From Thermoanaerobaculales bacterium (lineage in GTDB: Bacteria > Acidobacteriota > Thermoanaerobaculia > Thermoanaerobaculales > Sulfomarinibacteraceae), in NCBI GenBank assembly GCA_029287235.1, contig JARFRM010000139.1:1-64000 (forward strand): a stretch of DNA of 64,000 nucleotides. The letters are read 5' to 3'. A program made the position numbers and the translations under genes. Under the pieces are notes generated by a model. It worked only from the letters and a program-made list of their open reading frames with translations, had not been told where the DNA came from and ran no database searches. Each line of letters begins with the position of its first letter. Within the stretch, counting starts at the first letter, position 1. This document shows, one piece after another, positions 65 through 51,207 of this stretch.

Positions 65-953
65 TTAGGTGAAAGGAGTCCACTGCTGGGCTACGGAGTT
101 GTGGAAAACGGCCGCCGTTTCCCACAGCCACCGCAGCCCCGTTGACTCGTGGCTCAATTGTACTCCTTCGCAGGCGGGGTGTTCTATTGCTCGATCCGCA
201 ATGTCACACGAAAGGTGGTCTATTGCTGAGACTCGTTCTGGGGCGCCGATGCCGAGAGCGTCTACCGGGCTGACGACACCTTTGCCTCCGAACCGGTTGA
301 GGACATGGGTGTAGATCATGGTCGTTTTGACATCCTTGTGGCCCAGGAGTTCCTGGATGGTTCGAATGTCGTAGCCGGCCATCAGGAGGTGTGTGGCGAA
401 GGAGTGCCACGCGGTCTTTGCGACCTTTGCCGTCGCGGATTGTAATCGCGCCGAGAGAGAAATCGACATCCTGAACACGGAGCCGCAGGCACTCGAGGAT
501 GCGCATACCGGTTCCGTAGAGAAGCATCACGATCAGCTGAGTTGTGCCTCCGAGGCGGGTAAGTAGGGCGACGACCTCTTCTTTCGAGAGGACCGTGGGG
601 AGCCGCTTGGGCTGGCGGGCGCGAACGATGTCTTCGATCCAGGGCGGGTCCATTTTGAGGACATTACGGTAGAGAAAGAGAATGGCACTCAGCGCCTGGC
701 GCTGTGTCGAGGCGGCGACCCGACCGTGAACGGCGAGGTGAGTCAGAAACCGGTTGAGGTCGTCGGCGGCGAGTTCCTTGGGATGTCGCCGGTGAAAACG
801 AAAGAACCGGTTCACCCAGCCGAGATAGGCCTCTTCGGTTCGGATGGAGTAGTGGTGGACCCGGATCGCTCGCCGCATGTTTTCGAGGAGCCTGGGGGCT
901 TCGGCCCGTTGGACGGTGGCGGGGTGGGGGATTACCTTCATGGTGTAAAACAA
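65..953 (-). pseudogene. Integron-integrase-like tyrosine recombinase, inactivated by internal deletion and frameshift
   Basis: The N-terminal reading frame (953 down to about 440) encodes the SAM-like core-binding domain and the first half of an IntI-type catalytic domain. It includes the region around [16 protein letters not shown] that carries the first catalytic Arg. At about 430-445 the sequence jumps straight from the GKGRKDRV segment into [13 protein letters not shown], in another frame. Roughly 70-80 codons that normally lie between these motifs, including the His of the H-x-x-R box, are missing. The C-terminal frame keeps [16 protein letters not shown] with the nucleophile Tyr and the typical SPVD ending, then runs on to a stop near 65. 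Intact IntI proteins are about 320-340 residues. The gene is therefore decayed and cannot recombine. I see no convincing attI or attC array in the part of the flank that is visible. Confidence 0.85.
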
Positions 954-44371: not shown

Positions 44372-44388
44372 TGTCGGCATGCCGACAT
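44371..44388. promoter_or_regulatory. 18-bp palindrome, copy 1 (candidate non-canonical parS)
   Basis: ATGTCGGCATGCCGACAT is a perfect palindrome at 44371-44388, directly after the serine hydrolase stop codon. An identical copy is inside parB at 47675-47692. I see no other full copy in the window. Its size and TGT...ACA ends resemble a parS site, but the core differs from TGTTTCACGTGAAACA. Confidence 0.6.
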
Positions 44389-44676: not shown

Positions 44677-47151
44677 TCAAGTGCGGAGCGTGGTCAGCCG
44701 GTTGACGGCGAAGAGGGAAGCGAGGATGGCGGGGGCCCAGGCGCCGATGACCGCGGGCAGGACCTCGGCCTCGCCGAGCTTGCCGAAGAACGCCACCGAA
44801 ACGTAGTAGACGATTCCGAGAACCAATGCGAGCGCGATCCCCTGCATGGTCGTCACCCTTCGCCCGCCACGGTTGAGGCCGAACGGAAGGGCGAGAAAGA
44901 CCATCAGAAACGCCGACAGGGGATAGGCGAGCTTCTGGTGCCACCTCACGAGCAACCGGGCTGGGTAGTGACCGGAATCGATCAGCTCACCGATGTGGGA
45001 ACGCAATTCCTTCACCGACATCTCGGCGGGCAGAAGACGTTCGTGAGCGAAGTAGTCCGGACCCTCGGCAATCCCGACCTCCGTAGGTCCGGTGATCATC
45101 TCGAACTCGAAGGACCCGTCGGGCTGCATCCGTCTGAACCACCCCGACTGTGTGGTCCACGCTCCGTTGGCGAAGGTCACCCGGGGAGCAAAGAGGTGGA
45201 AGCGAAGCTCCATAGCCTCATCAATGCTGAATTTGGTGAATCGCACCATGGACTGATCCGATTCATCGAACTGGAGAAAGCTGTAGAAGCTCTGGTCGTC
45301 TCGCGACAGCAGCCACTGGCGACCCCCGGCCGTGTAGGAGCGAGCCGTTTCACGACCCTTGATACGGTCGAGAAACCGCTTGGCCTTGCGGTTGGAGTTG
45401 GGCACCACGGACTCGCTCAGGATCCACATGGCGCCGGCGACCAACGAGGCGATCAAGAGAATCGGCACCACGACCCGGTAGAGCGAAATCCCTCCGGCCT
45501 TGAACGCTGTGAGCTCCTGTTGACGCTCCAGGACCGTCAAGACGATTAAAACGGAGATCAACAGGGCCAAAGGCATGATGTCCATGATGAGCTGCGGAAC
45601 CAGATTGAGGTAGTACCCAACGATGACGTCGAAGGGCACGCTGTTCTTGGCCATGTCATCAACGTTGTCGGTCAGGTCGATGACCACGTACAGAAGAGAC
45701 GTACTCACCAGAACCAACGCCAGTGGGCCCAGAAGACGGCGGATCACATATTTGTCCAGGATCGTCGGAAATCCGGTGGACACGCGTCGTCTCTGCAAAC
45801 CCACCGGGTAGCCGCCCGACAACGCTTCGCCCTCGGGGATCGCCTGTCCGGCGACAACTCGCGATCGCCGGCCGGCCCTCCACCGCCGGACCCACCGGGC
45901 AAAAGCTCCCTCAGGCCTTTGACGTTCGCCCATCCAACGCCCCATCCGGGTGATGAGGAAGATGGAGACACAGGCGAGGATGAAGTTGGCGATCCACACT
46001 CCCGTCCAGGCGGGGATCCGACCTTCCACCGCGAGCAGCTCGCCGTTGTTGTTGATGACGTAGTAGGCGAGGATGACTCCCACCGAGACGATGAACCCAC
46101 GCCCCCGACCACCCGACCGCGAACCCACCCCGAGCGGCACCGCCAGGAGTCCGAAGACCACGCAGGCAACCGGGATCGCCACCCGGCGGTTGAGCTCGAT
46201 CACGGCGAGCCGCCGCTGGAGCGCCTCCTTTTCCGCATCCGGCGCCTCCCGAATCTCGACCGATGTACCATCGAAGGAACCCTCACGCAAGTACTTGACG
46301 ATCGATGTGGTTCGGCGCTCACGCATGTTGAGTTGATAACGGGAGATCCCGGCGTTTCGGGTCGTCCCCCCGGGTCGGACGACCTGCTGATAGCTCTGGC
46401 TGAACCGGTAGGCCTCCGGTTCGCTGCGGTTGAACTGGTGGTTCACCACGTCCTCGAGGAGTATCCACCGCTTCGGCGCTCCCGATTCTGCGCCCCCGAC
46501 GGCGGGGGAGTCACCGTCATCGGTGGTGACGATTCGTCCGTGCCGTGCCAGGGTGAGCCGCTGTTCCACCGGATCGGTGGAATCGAAGATCATGACTCCT
46601 CGCCAGCGCCCGCCACGATCCGCCACCTCCCGCACATAGAGCAGGAGATTGGGAAACTCCTCGTAGAAGACCCCGGGTTCGATCCGACCGATGTTCTTGG
46701 CATTGGCGAAAAGAGAGACCCGCATTTCCCGCAGAGTCCGGTTGGAGTCGGGGATCACCACCAGGTACATCCAGCCGTTCAACAGCGTGAGAACGACACC
46801 GATCAGGATCACGGGTCGCAGGATGCGGACCGCAGGAATGCCGGCGGACTGGAGGGCGATGATCTCGTTGTCGGAGTTCATTCTGCCGACGGCGATGAGA
46901 ACACCGAAGAGAAAGCTCATGGGAACCGTCAGCACGAGGACGTGAGGAACCGTGTTGGCGAGTACCCGAAAAGCGTCGGCCCAGGGCACTCCGCGCACCA
47001 GGACCATTTCGACGAGGCTGAAGATCGGCCGCATCATGAGCAGGAATGTGTAGACCAACAATCCCATCAGCGCGGGGGGCGCCACCTCGCGGATGACAAA
47101 TCGATCCAAGCGGCCGAATGACTTCAAAAAACCTCCCAAGAATCCGAGCAC
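44677..47151 (-). CDS. LptF-LptG fusion, LPS export ABC permease
   Basis: The 824-residue protein holds two YjgP/YjgQ domains in one chain. The N-terminal half (1-~410) starts DRFVIREVAPPALMGLLVYTFLLM, has the LptF-type GRMNSDNEIIALQSAGI coupling helix, and a beta-jellyroll in the middle. A basic linker (about 410-470) follows. The C-terminal half starts TILDKYVIRRLLGPLALVLVSTSLLYVVIDLTDN, with the LptG-type ERQQELTAFKAGGISLYRVV segment and its own jellyroll. Each half has six expected membrane helices. The two halves are separate genes in most bacteria. Start is GTG at 47151 or the TTG at 47127, which has GGGAGG just before it. Confidence 0.93.
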   Translation of the reverse strand: MLGFLGGFLKSFGRLDRFVIREVAPPALMGLLVYTFLLMMRPIFSLVEMVLVRGVPWADAFRVLANTVPHVLVLTVPMSFLFGVLIAVGRMNSDNEIIALQSAGIPAVRILRPVILIGVVLTLLNGWMYLVVIPDSNRTLREMRVSLFANAKNIGRIEPGVFYEEFPNLLLYVREVADRGGRWRGVMIFDSTDPVEQRLTLARHGRIVTTDDGDSPAVGGAESGAPKRWILLEDVVNHQFNRSEPEAYRFSQSYQQVVRPGGTTRNAGISRYQLNMRERRTTSIVKYLREGSFDGTSVEIREAPDAEKEALQRRLAVIELNRRVAIPVACVVFGLLAVPLGVGSRSGGRGRGFIVSVGVILAYYVINNNGELLAVEGRIPAWTGVWIANFILACVSIFLITRMGRWMGERQRPEGAFARWVRRWRAGRRSRVVAGQAIPEGEALSGGYPVGLQRRRVSTGFPTILDKYVIRRLLGPLALVLVSTSLLYVVIDLTDNVDDMAKNSVPFDVIVGYYLNLVPQLIMDIMPLALLISVLIVLTVLERQQELTAFKAGGISLYRVVVPILLIASLVAGAMWILSESVVPNSNRKAKRFLDRIKGRETARSYTAGGRQWLLSRDDQSFYSFLQFDESDQSMVRFTKFSIDEAMELRFHLFAPRVTFANGAWTTQSGWFRRMQPDGSFEFEMITGPTEVGIAEGPDYFAHERLLPAEMSVKELRSHIGELIDSGHYPARLLVRWHQKLAYPLSAFLMVFLALPFGLNRGGRRVTTMQGIALALVLGIVYYVSVAFFGKLGEAEVLPAVIGAWAPAILASLFAVNRLTTLRT

Positions 47152-47215
47152 AGTCTAACAAAGCTGTCGGTTCTCAAAATCCCGATCATCGGACGGGTTG
47201 AGTGGGAAGCGGTGC

Positions 47216-47254
47216 TTTTCCACAGGAATTTCCACACCAGGTCTGTTTTCCACA
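47216..47254 (+). promoter_or_regulatory. Cluster of three DnaA-box-like motifs
   Basis: TTTTCCACA at 47216-47224, ATTTCCACA at 47228-47236 and TTTTCCACA at 47246-47254, all in one orientation. TTTTCCACA is one step from the E. coli box TTATCCACA and is used as a box in other phyla. The motif is otherwise almost absent from the window (one copy on the opposite strand near 100). The cluster lies beside the dif-like site. Confidence 0.6.
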
Positions 47255-47272
47255 GATTCGCGCTCGATTGCA

Positions 47273-47300
47273 ATGTCCGATAAGATATATTATGTAAACC
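47273..47300 (+). promoter_or_regulatory. dif-like XerCD recombination site
   Basis: The XerC-arm-like ATGTCCGATAA (47273-47283), a 6-base centre GATATA, and the XerD-arm-like TTATGTAAACC (47290-47300). By my hand alignment it matches B. subtilis dif at 22 of 28 positions and E. coli dif at 17 of 28; the XerD arm is the best part. It stands out as a very AT-rich patch in GC-rich DNA, between lptFG and parB. Confidence 0.65.
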
Positions 47301-47337
47301 TAAATACAAAATTAACCGATGATGGCTCGCCTCTCGA

Positions 47338-48234
47338 CTAGCCTGATTCTGATTGAGGTTTGCCGTCGAGACCGGCTTCGATTTCGCGAATCAGGCTCCT
47401 GAGGGCCTCGAGAACATCCCTCGGTTCGGGTTCCGACTCCGTTCTAAACGACAGCGAAACCCCGAACGGCCGATCGCCGGAGGGCCGGAAGCGAACGATG
47501 AACGGTTTTCTCTGCTCACCGCCGTCCGTGTTTGAATCATCATCGGAGACGTTTCGACGCCGTCGACGAAGTTCCGCACGATCGAGGCGGTCTTCGACGA
47601 TCTGCTGAACAAGGGAGAGCATCGATTCGAGATCCGGCGCGCGAGCGATCTCGAGGAGCGTGCTCTTGGCGCTGATGTCGGCATGCCGACATGCGTCCCT
47701 GACCTCGGGTGGGATCTCGAGGAGTTTGAGGGTCTCGGTAACTGTAACCCTCGAACGCCCGACCGCGACGGATACCTCTTCGTGAGTGTAACTGTATGTA
47801 TTAACGAGTGTTGCGAACCCTTCCGCTTCCTCGAATGGAGTCAGATCCTTGCGCTGGAGATTCTCGATCAGCGCAATCTCGAGGGCCTCCTGGTCGTCGA
47901 GCTCGAGCTCGACGCAGGGAACCTCGTCAAGGCCGGCCATCATGGCGGCGTGAAAACGCCGTTCGCCGGAGATCAGCTCGTATCCCCCATCCGAACGCTT
48001 TCGCACGAGCAAGGGCTCGAGGACGCCGTGACGACTGATGCTTCCAACGAGGTCTTTGAGGTCGCCGAGATTGGTTCTCGGCTGGTCTCGATTCGACGAA
48101 ATCTGAGTGACCCGAACCACCACCCCGAAACCGTCGCCCGATCTCGGAGTCACCAGCTCATCGACATAGTGGCGATCGTGGCGCATCCGACGCCGGGGCG
48201 GGAGGCCGACGTTTTTCCGGCTAGCTTCCGACAC
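47338..48234 (-). CDS. parB: Chromosome partitioning protein ParB
   Basis: This 298-residue CTPase ParB has the N-domain motifs QPR (51-53), GERRFHAA (90-97, C-motif 1) and ENLQR (124-128), as in CTP-clamp ParBs. The helix-turn-helix follows from about 150 (YTHEEVSVAVGRSRVTVTETLKLL). In the specificity region the usual GH is replaced by KS (ISAKSTLLEI). By my alignment with Caulobacter ParB the Ala184 and Gly201 equivalents are Glu173 and Lys190. The start is a GTG at 48234 with GAGGAGG ahead, inside the end of parA. The gene carries a copy of the 18-bp palindrome. Confidence 0.93.
   Translation of the reverse strand: MSEASRKNVGLPPRRRMRHDRHYVDELVTPRSGDGFGVVVRVTQISSNRDQPRTNLGDLKDLVGSISRHGVLEPLLVRKRSDGGYELISGERRFHAAMMAGLDEVPCVELELDDQEALEIALIENLQRKDLTPFEEAEGFATLVNTYSYTHEEVSVAVGRSRVTVTETLKLLEIPPEVRDACRHADISAKSTLLEIARAPDLESMLSLVQQIVEDRLDRAELRRRRRNVSDDDSNTDGGEQRKPFIVRFRPSGDRPFGVSLSFRTESEPEPRDVLEALRSLIREIEAGLDGKPQSESG
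47675..47692. promoter_or_regulatory. 18-bp palindrome, copy 2, inside parB (candidate non-canonical parS)
   Basis: ATGTCGGCATGCCGACAT again, identical to 44371-44388. It is in the coding sequence near the ParB codons RHADIS. A parS inside or next to parB is the normal location in other bacteria. Confidence 0.6.
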
Positions 48235-48979
48235 GCTCGAGAACCTCCTCACACAGACGGTAGTATTCGTAGGCTCCGCTCGAGTCCGGCGCGTGGTCGA
48301 AGATGCTGCACTGGTGCGCCGGTGATTCCTCGAGACGGACCGACTTCGTGATGTAGGTGTCGAAAACGAGTTTGCCGAAGACACCGTGGATTTCTTCGCT
48401 GACCTGCCGCGAAAGGATGGTCCGACGATCGAACATTGTAATCAGCACGCCCAAGACCCGCAGCTCGGTGTTGGGCCGGGCCTTGATCTTGTCGATGGTG
48501 TCGAGGAGGTCGTCGGTTCCTTCGAGCGCGAAGTACGAGGACTGGATGGGGATGATGACGTGACTTGCCGCCACCAACGCATTCACAGTCGTCAAACCGA
48601 GAGTTGGAGGCGTATCGATGATGACGGCCTGGTAATGACCATCGAGCTCGTCGAGCCGGTCCTTCAGACGATAAGGGGCGTCCAGCTCCCCCACCATGGA
48701 GACCTCGAGCTTGGCCATTGCAATCCGCGATGGAGCTAGCCATAGATTCTCCTGGGCCGAGGGGATGATCACATCGCCGAGCCCCAGGCGTCCCGTCATC
48801 ACATCGAACATGTTGCCGTTGATCTGCCCCAGATCGGTGGTGGACATGGTCGAGTTTGCCTGAGGATCGATATCGACCAGAAGGGTCTTGAGGCCCTTCT
48901 GCGCCAATCCGGCGGCGAGATTGACCGCGGTTGTGGTCTTCCCTACTCCACCCTTCTGGTTGGTGATGGCGACGATCAT
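48221..48979 (-). CDS. parA: Chromosome partitioning ATPase ParA/Soj
   Basis: The 252-residue Walker-type ATPase has the deviant Walker A KGGVGKTT (about 9-16), DIDPQAN at about 38-44, and VIIDTPPTLG for the Walker B region. The short form has no N-terminal HTH, as in chromosomal ParA/Soj proteins. The ATG at 48979 has AGGAG upstream. It makes a transport gradient that moves ParB-parS complexes. Its C-terminal codons overlap the parB start. A good sigma-70 promoter lies just upstream. Confidence 0.96.
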   Translation of the reverse strand: MIVAITNQKGGVGKTTTAVNLAAGLAQKGLKTLLVDIDPQANSTMSTTDLGQINGNMFDVMTGRLGLGDVIIPSAQENLWLAPSRIAMAKLEVSMVGELDAPYRLKDRLDELDGHYQAVIIDTPPTLGLTTVNALVAASHVIIPIQSSYFALEGTDDLLDTIDKIKARPNTELRVLGVLITMFDRRTILSRQVSEEIHGVFGKLVFDTYITKSVRLEESPAHQCSIFDHAPDSSGAYEYYRLCEEVLERVGS

Positions 48980-49135: not shown

Positions 49136-49633
49136 TCACATCTCGTACTCACCCATGTCCTCCGGACGCATCTGCTCCAGCACCGCCTTGACGGCATCTT
49201 CCTGGCTCGCCTCGGTCACCATCGCTCGATCGAGAACACTTGAATCCACGAGGACATCGGCGTCGGCTCTCAGGGCAATGGCAATGGCGTCGGAAGGACG
49301 GGCATCGACCTCGTACCGGTCGCCCTCGGGATTGCTGAGGTGGACCGAAGCGAGGTAGATGGAATCGTCAAGGCTGTGGATCAAGACATGATCGAGGGTG
49401 AAGCCCAGATCATGAATCAGCGACCCGATGAGATCGTGAGTGAGGGGGCGAGGTACCTCGACGCCCTCGAGATTGATGGCGATGGCGTTCGCCTCGCAGA
49501 CCCCTATCCAAATCGGCAGGTAGGCGTTCGCCTCCGGTCTGGCGAGTATCACAACCGGACTGTTGGTCGCGGGATCGACGACCAGGGCGCGGACCGACAT
49601 TTTAACCGGAACACTGGTCTTCTCGATTGTCAT
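49136..49633 (-). CDS. Bifunctional nuclease family (BFN/DUF151) protein
   Basis: This 165-residue single BFN domain has the hallmark IWIGVCEANAIAINLEGVEVPRPLTHDLI and RPSDAIAIALRADADVLVDSSVLDRA segments. Plant and some bacterial members have DNase and RNase activity; the bacterial role is not settled. The ATG at 49633 is used. It sits between parA and miaB on the same strand. Its C-terminal tail is acidic (GEYEM). Confidence 0.85.
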   Translation of the reverse strand: MTIEKTSVPVKMSVRALVVDPATNSPVVILARPEANAYLPIWIGVCEANAIAINLEGVEVPRPLTHDLIGSLIHDLGFTLDHVLIHSLDDSIYLASVHLSNPEGDRYEVDARPSDAIAIALRADADVLVDSSVLDRAMVTEASQEDAVKAVLEQMRPEDMGEYEM

Positions 49634-49701
49634 ATTCCCAATGTGTCCGGGCGGACGAGGGATGTCAAGAACGAATCCGCGTCCGGGGTCACAACAATCA
49701 C

Positions 49702-51036
49702 CTACCCGTTTGAAACGGTGGGCAGACGGACGGCCCCTCCGACGATCATTCCGACCAGCGAGTGAGCCCCGGCTCGTCGGATCTCGACCTCGACCACATC
49801 GCCGATCTCCTCGCGGCCGCACCGGGGGAAGTTGACGACACGGTTGTCCTCTCCCCTCCCCTGCCAGTGTTCGGGATCTCGACGGCTGGGCCCGTCGATG
49901 AGCACCTGAATCGATCGGCCGACAAGCGCATGGTTGAGCTCGCGAGAGATCTCATCGCACCGCCCGAAAAGGCGTTGGAGCCTCGCGCTCTTGACGGCAT
50001 CGCTGATCTGCGGCCGATACCGCGCCGCCGGTGTCTTGGGTCGTGGAGAGAATCCGAAGGCGAAGACCTGTCCGAATCGAACCTCCTCGAGGAGTTCCAT
50101 GGTGTCCTCGAAGTCCGCTTCGGTCTCACCGGGGAATCCGACGATGATGTCGGTGGAGAGGTTGATCTCCGGGGCGGCCTTCCGGATCCGACCCACGAGA
50201 TCCAGGTACTCCTGACGGGTGTACTTTCGGTGCATCCGCTTCAGGATCTCGTCCGAGCCCGACTGAATCGGTAAATGAAGGTATCGAAAAACGTTTCGGT
50301 GACTCGCGAGGACATCGATCAGATCCTGATCGAAGTGACGGGGATGTGAAGTGATGAACCGGACGCGGAGCAATCCGTCCACCGAAGCCACCTTTTCGAG
50401 CAGCTGCGCGAGGTCTGCGCCGGAATCGGGACACCGGTAGGCATTGATCGTCTGGCCCAGGAGCTCGACCTCTTTCACCCCGTCGGAGGCGAGCAAACGC
50501 ACCTCGGCGAGGACCTGGTCCAAGGGACGACTCACCTCCCGGCCACGGGTGTATGGCACGATGCAGAAGGTACAGAACTCGTTGCAGCCTTCGATGACCG
50601 TCACCATTCCACGGGTGGTGCTCTTGCGGAAGATCGTGTGGTAGTTGTACTCGGCTTCGGCGTCGAACCCCGTCAGAATCGGCCGCTCGCCTTGCGAAAC
50701 CGCTCGAACGGCCTCTCCAATGCGTGTGGTCTGTCCGGGACCGATGACAAATCCTACCGATCGAGAACGCTCCAAAAGAGATCCGGCCTCCTGCTCGGCG
50801 ACGCAGCCACAGACACCGATGGTCGTGAGCGGATTCTGCTTGGCCAGATACCCGATGCGACTGATGATCTTCTGCACGGGCTTTTCCCTCACCGAACAGG
50901 TGTTCAGCACCACCAGGTCTGCGTCTCGCGCGGCCCCGGCGGGCGCCAGCCCGTGACGGCGCAACTGCCCCTCGATCAGCTCGCTGTCATGCCGATTCAT
51001 CTGGCAGCCCCAGGTCTCGATAAAGAAAGTTTTCAT
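49702..51036 (-). CDS. miaB: tRNA-2-methylthio-N6-dimethylallyladenosine synthase
   Basis: The 444-residue radical-SAM methylthiotransferase has the N-terminal UPF0004 cysteines in TWGCQMN, NTCSVRE and GVCGC, which hold the auxiliary cluster. The radical-SAM triad is in CNEFCTFCIVP, and a TRAM-like domain is at the C terminus. It adds a methylthio group to i6A37 in tRNA. A GTG six codons upstream (51054) also opens the frame. The N-terminal motif is MiaB rather than MtaB or RimO style. Confidence 0.93.
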   Translation of the reverse strand: MKTFFIETWGCQMNRHDSELIEGQLRRHGLAPAGAARDADLVVLNTCSVREKPVQKIISRIGYLAKQNPLTTIGVCGCVAEQEAGSLLERSRSVGFVIGPGQTTRIGEAVRAVSQGERPILTGFDAEAEYNYHTIFRKSTTRGMVTVIEGCNEFCTFCIVPYTRGREVSRPLDQVLAEVRLLASDGVKEVELLGQTINAYRCPDSGADLAQLLEKVASVDGLLRVRFITSHPRHFDQDLIDVLASHRNVFRYLHLPIQSGSDEILKRMHRKYTRQEYLDLVGRIRKAAPEINLSTDIIVGFPGETEADFEDTMELLEEVRFGQVFAFGFSPRPKTPAARYRPQISDAVKSARLQRLFGRCDEISRELNHALVGRSIQVLIDGPSRRDPEHWQGRGEDNRVVNFPRCGREEIGDVVEVEIRRAGAHSLVGMIVGGAVRLPTVSNG

Positions 51037-51207
51037 ATTGAGATTGATCTTCACTCACATTTTCAGACTCAACGACGACGGATTCTATCTTGTCGGCGCC
51101 CCTTCCGCAAATCTAGAGACCCTTCCGCGGGCGCGAGCCGCAATCGAGAAGAACCGGGGGTTTCCCGAGATGCCCGGATTCACCCGGGATCCCTTTCAGT
51201 CGCTACC

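Follow-up and report, generated by a model that had tools for sequence, protein, structure and literature searches.

The gap flagged in the 64,000-nucleotide stretch of DNA analysed here (the window, contig C320 of a 336-contig assembly) is dif, the site of the chromosome's replication terminus. The parAB genes next to it are a second, paralogous pair, ParA2/ParB2, apart from the pair at the origin, and a candidate ParB2-binding palindrome, which we call parS-ter, flanks dif. The explanation that fits best, and which we consider probable, is a replication terminus with a second, terminus-dedicated ParABS beside dif, proposed to act there. Relatives, found through the ParB of the window among metagenome-assembled genomes of Thermoanaerobaculia and Acidobacteriota, keep ParB2 linked to dif, and a second partitioning system beside dif, with a predicted DNA site of its own, looks to span much of the phylum.

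The gap (47152-47337) is bounded by the lptFG open reading frame (44677-47151, minus strand) and the parB open reading frame (from 47338, minus strand). The initial annotation had counted 22 of 28 positions shared between a XerCD-like site in this gap and the dif of B. subtilis, and our recount gave the same figure: the 28-mer ATGTCCGATAAGATATATTATGTAAACC at 47273-47300 (plus strand), with ATGTCCGATAA on the XerC-arm side and TTATGTAAACC on the XerD-arm side, is identical at 22/28 positions to the reference ACTTCCTAGAATATATATTATGTAAACT printed in PMC3025954, while the best dif match among 100 windows simulated with an order-2 Markov model was 18/28. A better dif elsewhere in the genome had also been reckoned with; a search of the 5.07-Mb assembly with the dif pattern, allowing up to three mismatches, returned the window site as its single match. 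Xer recombinases are encoded on other contigs: C77 has a XerD over the cut-off, and C48 another full-length Xer relative. The dif sites predicted for Acidobacteria in PMC3025954 are the same 28-bp site and are also placed where the skew shifts; parB goes unmentioned in that paper's main text, and the linkage to a dedicated ParAB pair and the flanking palindromes are added by the present analysis. XerCD recombination under FtsK control would be expected at this dif. KOPS-like octamers are too scarce in the window to show a polarity.

The terminal location of this site is seen most directly in relatives assembled in few contigs. In G071, a single contig of 4,634,923 bp, dif is at 398,914, parB2 at 399,132-399,929 and dnaA at 2,727,441, that is, 50.2% of the circle away from dif. 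GC skew, computed in the relatives on sampled stretches, is in this genome +0.04 to +0.06 over the 8 kb on the left side of dif (+0.04 next to it) and -0.04 to -0.09 over the 10 kb on the right side (-0.07 next to it), with the opposite turn at dnaA. The dif-dnaA distance in other relatives of this kind is 48.4% (G328), 56.9% (G216), 47.6% (G168) and 50.3% (G194, first contig), and the skew flips at dif in five of the six few-contig relatives, clearly in G059 and G194 and weakly in G328 and G168; G216 gave no usable skew, and no flip was seen at its dif. Furthermore, in two genomes of a family without ParB2 (G281 and G285 of f25) dif is still found about opposite dnaA. The skew of the window itself, +0.044 over 0-29 kb, -0.014 from there up to dif and -0.033 beyond, is consistent with a terminus and not decisive alone, so that the skew turn proposed as a check on the initial annotation is present in the relatives and only compatible with the window.

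The origin region of this chromosome is elsewhere. The positions of dnaA and gidA had been named as a further check, and dnaA and mnmG are both on contig C48, away from the window, in a textbook origin region with gyrA, gyrB, recF, dnaN, dnaA, rnpA-side genes, yidC, mnmE, mnmG, rsmG, parA and parB (gene names assigned from translations). The only two parS-like sites detected genome-wide, C48:34169 and C48:35253, accompany this origin parAB. With this standard parAB and its parS on C48, besides the pair in the window, the genome has two parAB pairs. The presence of parAB beside dif had first appeared contradictory, and the contradiction dissolves because the pair in question is a second parAB tied to dif, and not that of the origin.

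Both window genes are on the minus strand in one operon. The parB2 gene (47338-48186, start placed at a conserved MRHDxHF) encodes a ParB-family, CTPase-clamp-like protein with the Pfam domains ParB_N and HTH_ParB, and parA2 (48221-48979, start likewise placed by prediction) a ParA/Soj-type ATPase with the domain AAA_31. ParB2 keeps the CTP motifs QPR, GERR and ENxQR together with its helix-turn-helix (HTH), as a ParABS requires, and the structure that AlphaFold predicts for it (pLDDT 87.5) matches those of CTP-bound ParB and Noc. Origin and terminus proteins are split by a branch with 100/100 support both in the tree of 60 ParB sequences and in that of 57 ParA sequences. The NCBIfam Noc model scores ParB2 at 153 bits, below its cut-off of 315, and among plasmid and phage ParB proteins no close relative of ParB2 was found. 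ParA2 was present in nearly all loci checked; the two exceptions were g50 loci (G071 and G059), where no ParA2 match was found and ParB2 is still beside dif. These two loci (L087 and L198) have no exact palindrome near, and their ParB2 may act alone or with the origin ParA. In f25, f37, f40, f20 and other families the best ParB match reached only the level of the origin ParB, and ParB2 seems to be absent from them. It is also missing from scattered f35 genomes, which suggests repeated loss.

The dif pattern was matched in 90 of 126 genomes of the class. In all 83 that have both elements on one contig (a count that pairs dif with the best ParB match, in genomes that here, as in the site counts below, are phylogenetically non-independent), dif is 3' of parB2; the gap has a median of 186 bp, is below 600 bp in 69 genomes and reaches at most 6.6 kb. 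In the remaining 7 of the 90, dif and ParB are on separate contigs or unlisted. The orientation of dif is that of parB2 in most class genomes and the opposite in about ten, and since a reversed dif still adjoins parB2, the adjacency outlives dif reversals. Reversed sites belong to families f4, f8, f9, f10, f13 and f17, always 3' of parB2 and, where both neighbours are visible, usually between parB2 and lptFG. The strict pattern missed genus g50; the four genomes checked there have dif at about 80-340 bp from parB2. Beyond the class, dif is no more than 1.3 kb away on the 3' side of parB2 in ten genomes from other families of Acidobacteriota, with gaps of 51 bp in G344, 91 bp in G203, 153 bp in G216, 210 bp in G328 and 759 bp in G168. 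The distance is about 38-39 kb in f44 genomes, and in G174 the nearest dif match, which may not be a true dif, is 73 kb off.

The order miaB-BFN-parA2-parB2-dif-lptFG is widely kept across the phylum. In the window, a gene with a bifunctional-nuclease domain and a miaB-like gene (49136-51054, minus strand, assigned by Pfam) are the conserved neighbours upstream of parA2, and the usual neighbour across dif is lptFG (minus strand), in which LptF and LptG are fused, a single open reading frame holding two LptF_LptG domains (PF03739). Because gene order is kept on both sides of dif, passive synteny could explain part of the dif-parB2 linkage.

A site for ParB2 was looked for by comparing perfect palindromes of any sequence in 730 kb of DNA from near dif (35 genomes) with those in 680 kb from distant regions. 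The top 14-mer, TGTCGGCGCGCCGACA, was present in 12 genomes and the top 16-mer, TGTCGGCATGCCGACA, in nine, with none of either in the distant set; the 16-bp palindrome TGTCGGCNNGCCGACA is therefore the product of an unbiased screen without a guiding motif. An exact search of the 5.07-Mb assembly found two copies only, and these flank dif: one at 47676-47691, inside parB2, and one at 44372-44387, between the convergent ends of lptFG and a serine beta-lactamase-like gene. In genome-wide searches the exact site was found in 56 of 65 genomes with ParB2 and in none of 15 without it (Fisher p about 2e-10, kinship ignored); the nine ParB2-bearing genomes that do not have it include the best-assembled, G071 and G059. 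Among the 75 sites listed, 20 are inside parB2, 40 within 3 kb of it, 12 at 3-60 kb, two on other contigs and one far away, so that 60 are inside parB2 or no more than 3 kb from it and 72 within 60 kb. The palindrome is limited to genomes that bear ParB2 and to the neighbourhood of parB2.

The position of the palindrome varies by family, inside parB2 in f1, f2 and many others and upstream of parA2 in f6-f13. In G023, G024, G025, G045, G048-G050 and G074 two to six candidate sites form an array upstream of parA2, the array of six being that of G025, and two groundwater genomes (L020 and L022) have two sites each near parB2. The three f3 genomes (G011, G016 and G017) each have a single exact palindrome, at about 50-52 kb from parB2, which suggests a conserved distant site; a palindrome search near parB2 in f3 and g50 gave no shared clear motif. 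Neither parS TGTTTCACGTGAAACA nor the Noc site NBS ATTTCCCGGGAAAT was found near dif at up to two mismatches in the loci scanned.

Where the site is inside parB2, its codons could be compared with the residues that they encode. When parB2 genes were chosen by their protein (C-R-x-A-D), 38 of 39 non-identical genes spelled TGT-CGG-xxx-GCC-GAC-A exactly and the 39th was one base off, whereas the chance of these four codons, from codon usage elsewhere in parB2, is 2.6% (0.026) per gene. Genes that encode C-R-E-A-G instead use varying codons, and they have lost the site. This shows that the site codons are under selection at the DNA level. Together with the screen and the exact genome search, it makes the palindrome, as a candidate parS-ter site and in its location, well supported; that ParB2 binds there is predicted from sequence.

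The HTH residues of ParB2 fit the known ParB/Noc recognition code. In that code, described in PMC7383237, residue 173 reads base 1 of the half-site and residue 201 reads base 6, with R173/G201 of ParB on G1/A6 and Q173/R201 of Noc on A1/C6. R173 is retained in ParB2, and position 201 is K or R in almost every sequence (numbering transferred by motif alignment and not from a solved complex); the palindrome, TGTCGGC, has G1 and C6. Residues 162 (H), 178 (E) and 204 (L) of ParB2 also differ from those of the ParB at the origin, changes that could account for the altered core of the palindrome.

From these observations we infer ParB2 binding to the palindrome, loading and spreading of the clamp, motion and handling of the terminus, and a phenotype. 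ParB2 would load as a CTP-dependent clamp at TGTCGGCNNGCCGACA, slide from the flanking palindromes over dif and so give the terminus the mark of a partition complex. Late in the cell cycle, ParA2 would bring the sister termini into position or move them apart, and termini handled in this way would allow FtsK-XerCD to act at the division site on dif, which would serve to resolve chromosome dimers. We lean, with some reserve, towards two centromere systems per Acidobacteriota chromosome, an origin ParABS with parS and a terminus ParA2-ParB2-parS-ter coupled to dif, by which the terminus would be partitioned or held for dimer resolution.

The main rival is a role like that of Noc or MatP, in which no force is generated and ParB2, as a division regulator, would bundle or anchor the terminus or license FtsZ at mid-cell with no ParA2-driven motion of DNA. 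We regard this as possible but distinctly less probable. The match of ParB2 to the Noc model, although below the cut-off, and to Noc structures speaks for it, as do the two g50 genomes that keep ParB2 beside dif with no ParA2 match, from which it follows that ParB2 can be retained without its ATPase. However, ParA2 accompanies ParB2 in nearly all other loci checked, and Noc sites are distributed over the whole chromosome except ter (PMC7383237), the reverse of the ParB2 pattern.

It is improbable that the palindrome is instead a transcription-factor operator for parAB2, independent of ParB2 binding. Such an operator would account for copies upstream of parA2 in several families and for arrays of up to six, but not for those of f1 and f2, which are in the parB2 gene itself and in the intergenic region between convergent genes beyond lptFG, nor for those as far as about 50 kb away, and the 16-bp, parS-like architecture fits the ParB/Noc code. 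Slightly less probable still is that ParAB2 is the fossil of an integrated element, a plasmid or a Xer-exploiting island, that has stayed next to dif by inertia. Elements that integrate at dif and carry parAB do exist, such as the gonococcal genetic island with its parA and parB, and the gene order kept on both sides of dif would agree with inertia. Against this stand the vertical pattern across the phylum, the codon-level selection on the palindrome, the persistence of the adjacency when dif is flipped and the lack of a close plasmid or phage ParB; instead of the two bounding dif sites and mobility genes of an island of that type, the genome has one dif with conserved housekeeping neighbours. 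Finally, the initial annotation had offered a terminus and an origin with a dif-like unwinding element as its two readings, of which the terminus stands and the origin, for which the DnaA-box-like motifs and the nearby parAB had spoken, is rejected, since dnaA-dnaN-gyrB-gyrA, mnmE-mnmG-rsmG, the standard parAB and the only parS sites are on C48, while the locus lacks a dnaA/dnaN/gyrB neighbourhood, is at a skew maximum and not a minimum, and is antipodal to dnaA in complete relatives.

The terminus-dedicated ParABS that we favour shares with the origin systems (Spo0J/Soj, Caulobacter ParAB-parS) a ParA ATPase, a ParB with CTP motifs, HTH and C-terminal domain, and, as candidate site, a 16-bp palindrome that starts with TGT, ends with ACA and is often in or beside the par genes. 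It differs from them in its place beside dif, alongside a standard origin ParABS, in its candidate site TGTCGGCNNGCCGACA, and in H162, E178, K/R201 and L204 of the ParB2 HTH. With Noc-NBS, the nucleoid occlusion system of Firmicutes, it would have in common a ParB paralogue with switched DNA specificity and a basic residue 201 reading C6; unlike Noc, which has no ParA partner, ParB2 has a linked ParA gene, keeps R173 and G at position 1, and has most of its candidate sites in the terminus neighbourhood, which NBS avoids. In E. coli, MatP-matS is a protein-DNA system restricted to the terminus, with a series of sites across the macrodomain. The restriction to the terminus is shared, but the protein family is unrelated and there are one to a few candidate parS-ter sites close to dif.

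Chromosomal ParABS is known as an origin-segregation machine with parS almost always near oriC, and Noc sites avoid the terminus (PMC7383237, PMC7333895); the placement of a ParABS at dif is consequently unusual. Our search for prior reports of a dif-linked ParAB covered the open-licence literature and found none there except the gonococcal island. Little is known of how termini are positioned and separated in bacteria that do not have MatP. If the proposed system is real, a ParABS tied to dif throughout a phylum would amount to a natural experiment, in which the same machine was moved to the opposite end of the chromosome and given a new recognition code, and terminus segregation would become testable with standard ParB tools and an exact predicted site in hand.

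The three TTTTCCACA-type motifs that were first noticed together with dif are present (47216-47254, plus strand), all on the XerC side of dif, and the stretch that they span together with dif is 85 bp long. Those at 47216 and 47246 are exact and that at 47228 is ATTTCCACA; the only other TTTTCCACA in the 64 kb is on the minus strand at 100. Taken together, 19 non-identical Thermoanaerobaculales loci have 38 TGTGGAA boxes in the 100 bp next to dif on its XerC side, against 0.14 expected, two to three per locus, spaced about 18 bp and then 11-12 bp, and in the same loci there is none on the XerD side and none in the other orientation. The boxes are real, but largely specific to this one order, and are not needed for the ParB2-dif arrangement. 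Binding of DnaA is plausible, because the motif is also that of most dnaA loci examined; regulation of lptFG or an accessory role for Xer is no less possible. At the contig end, window positions 296-851 hold a broken tyrosine recombinase in two frames.
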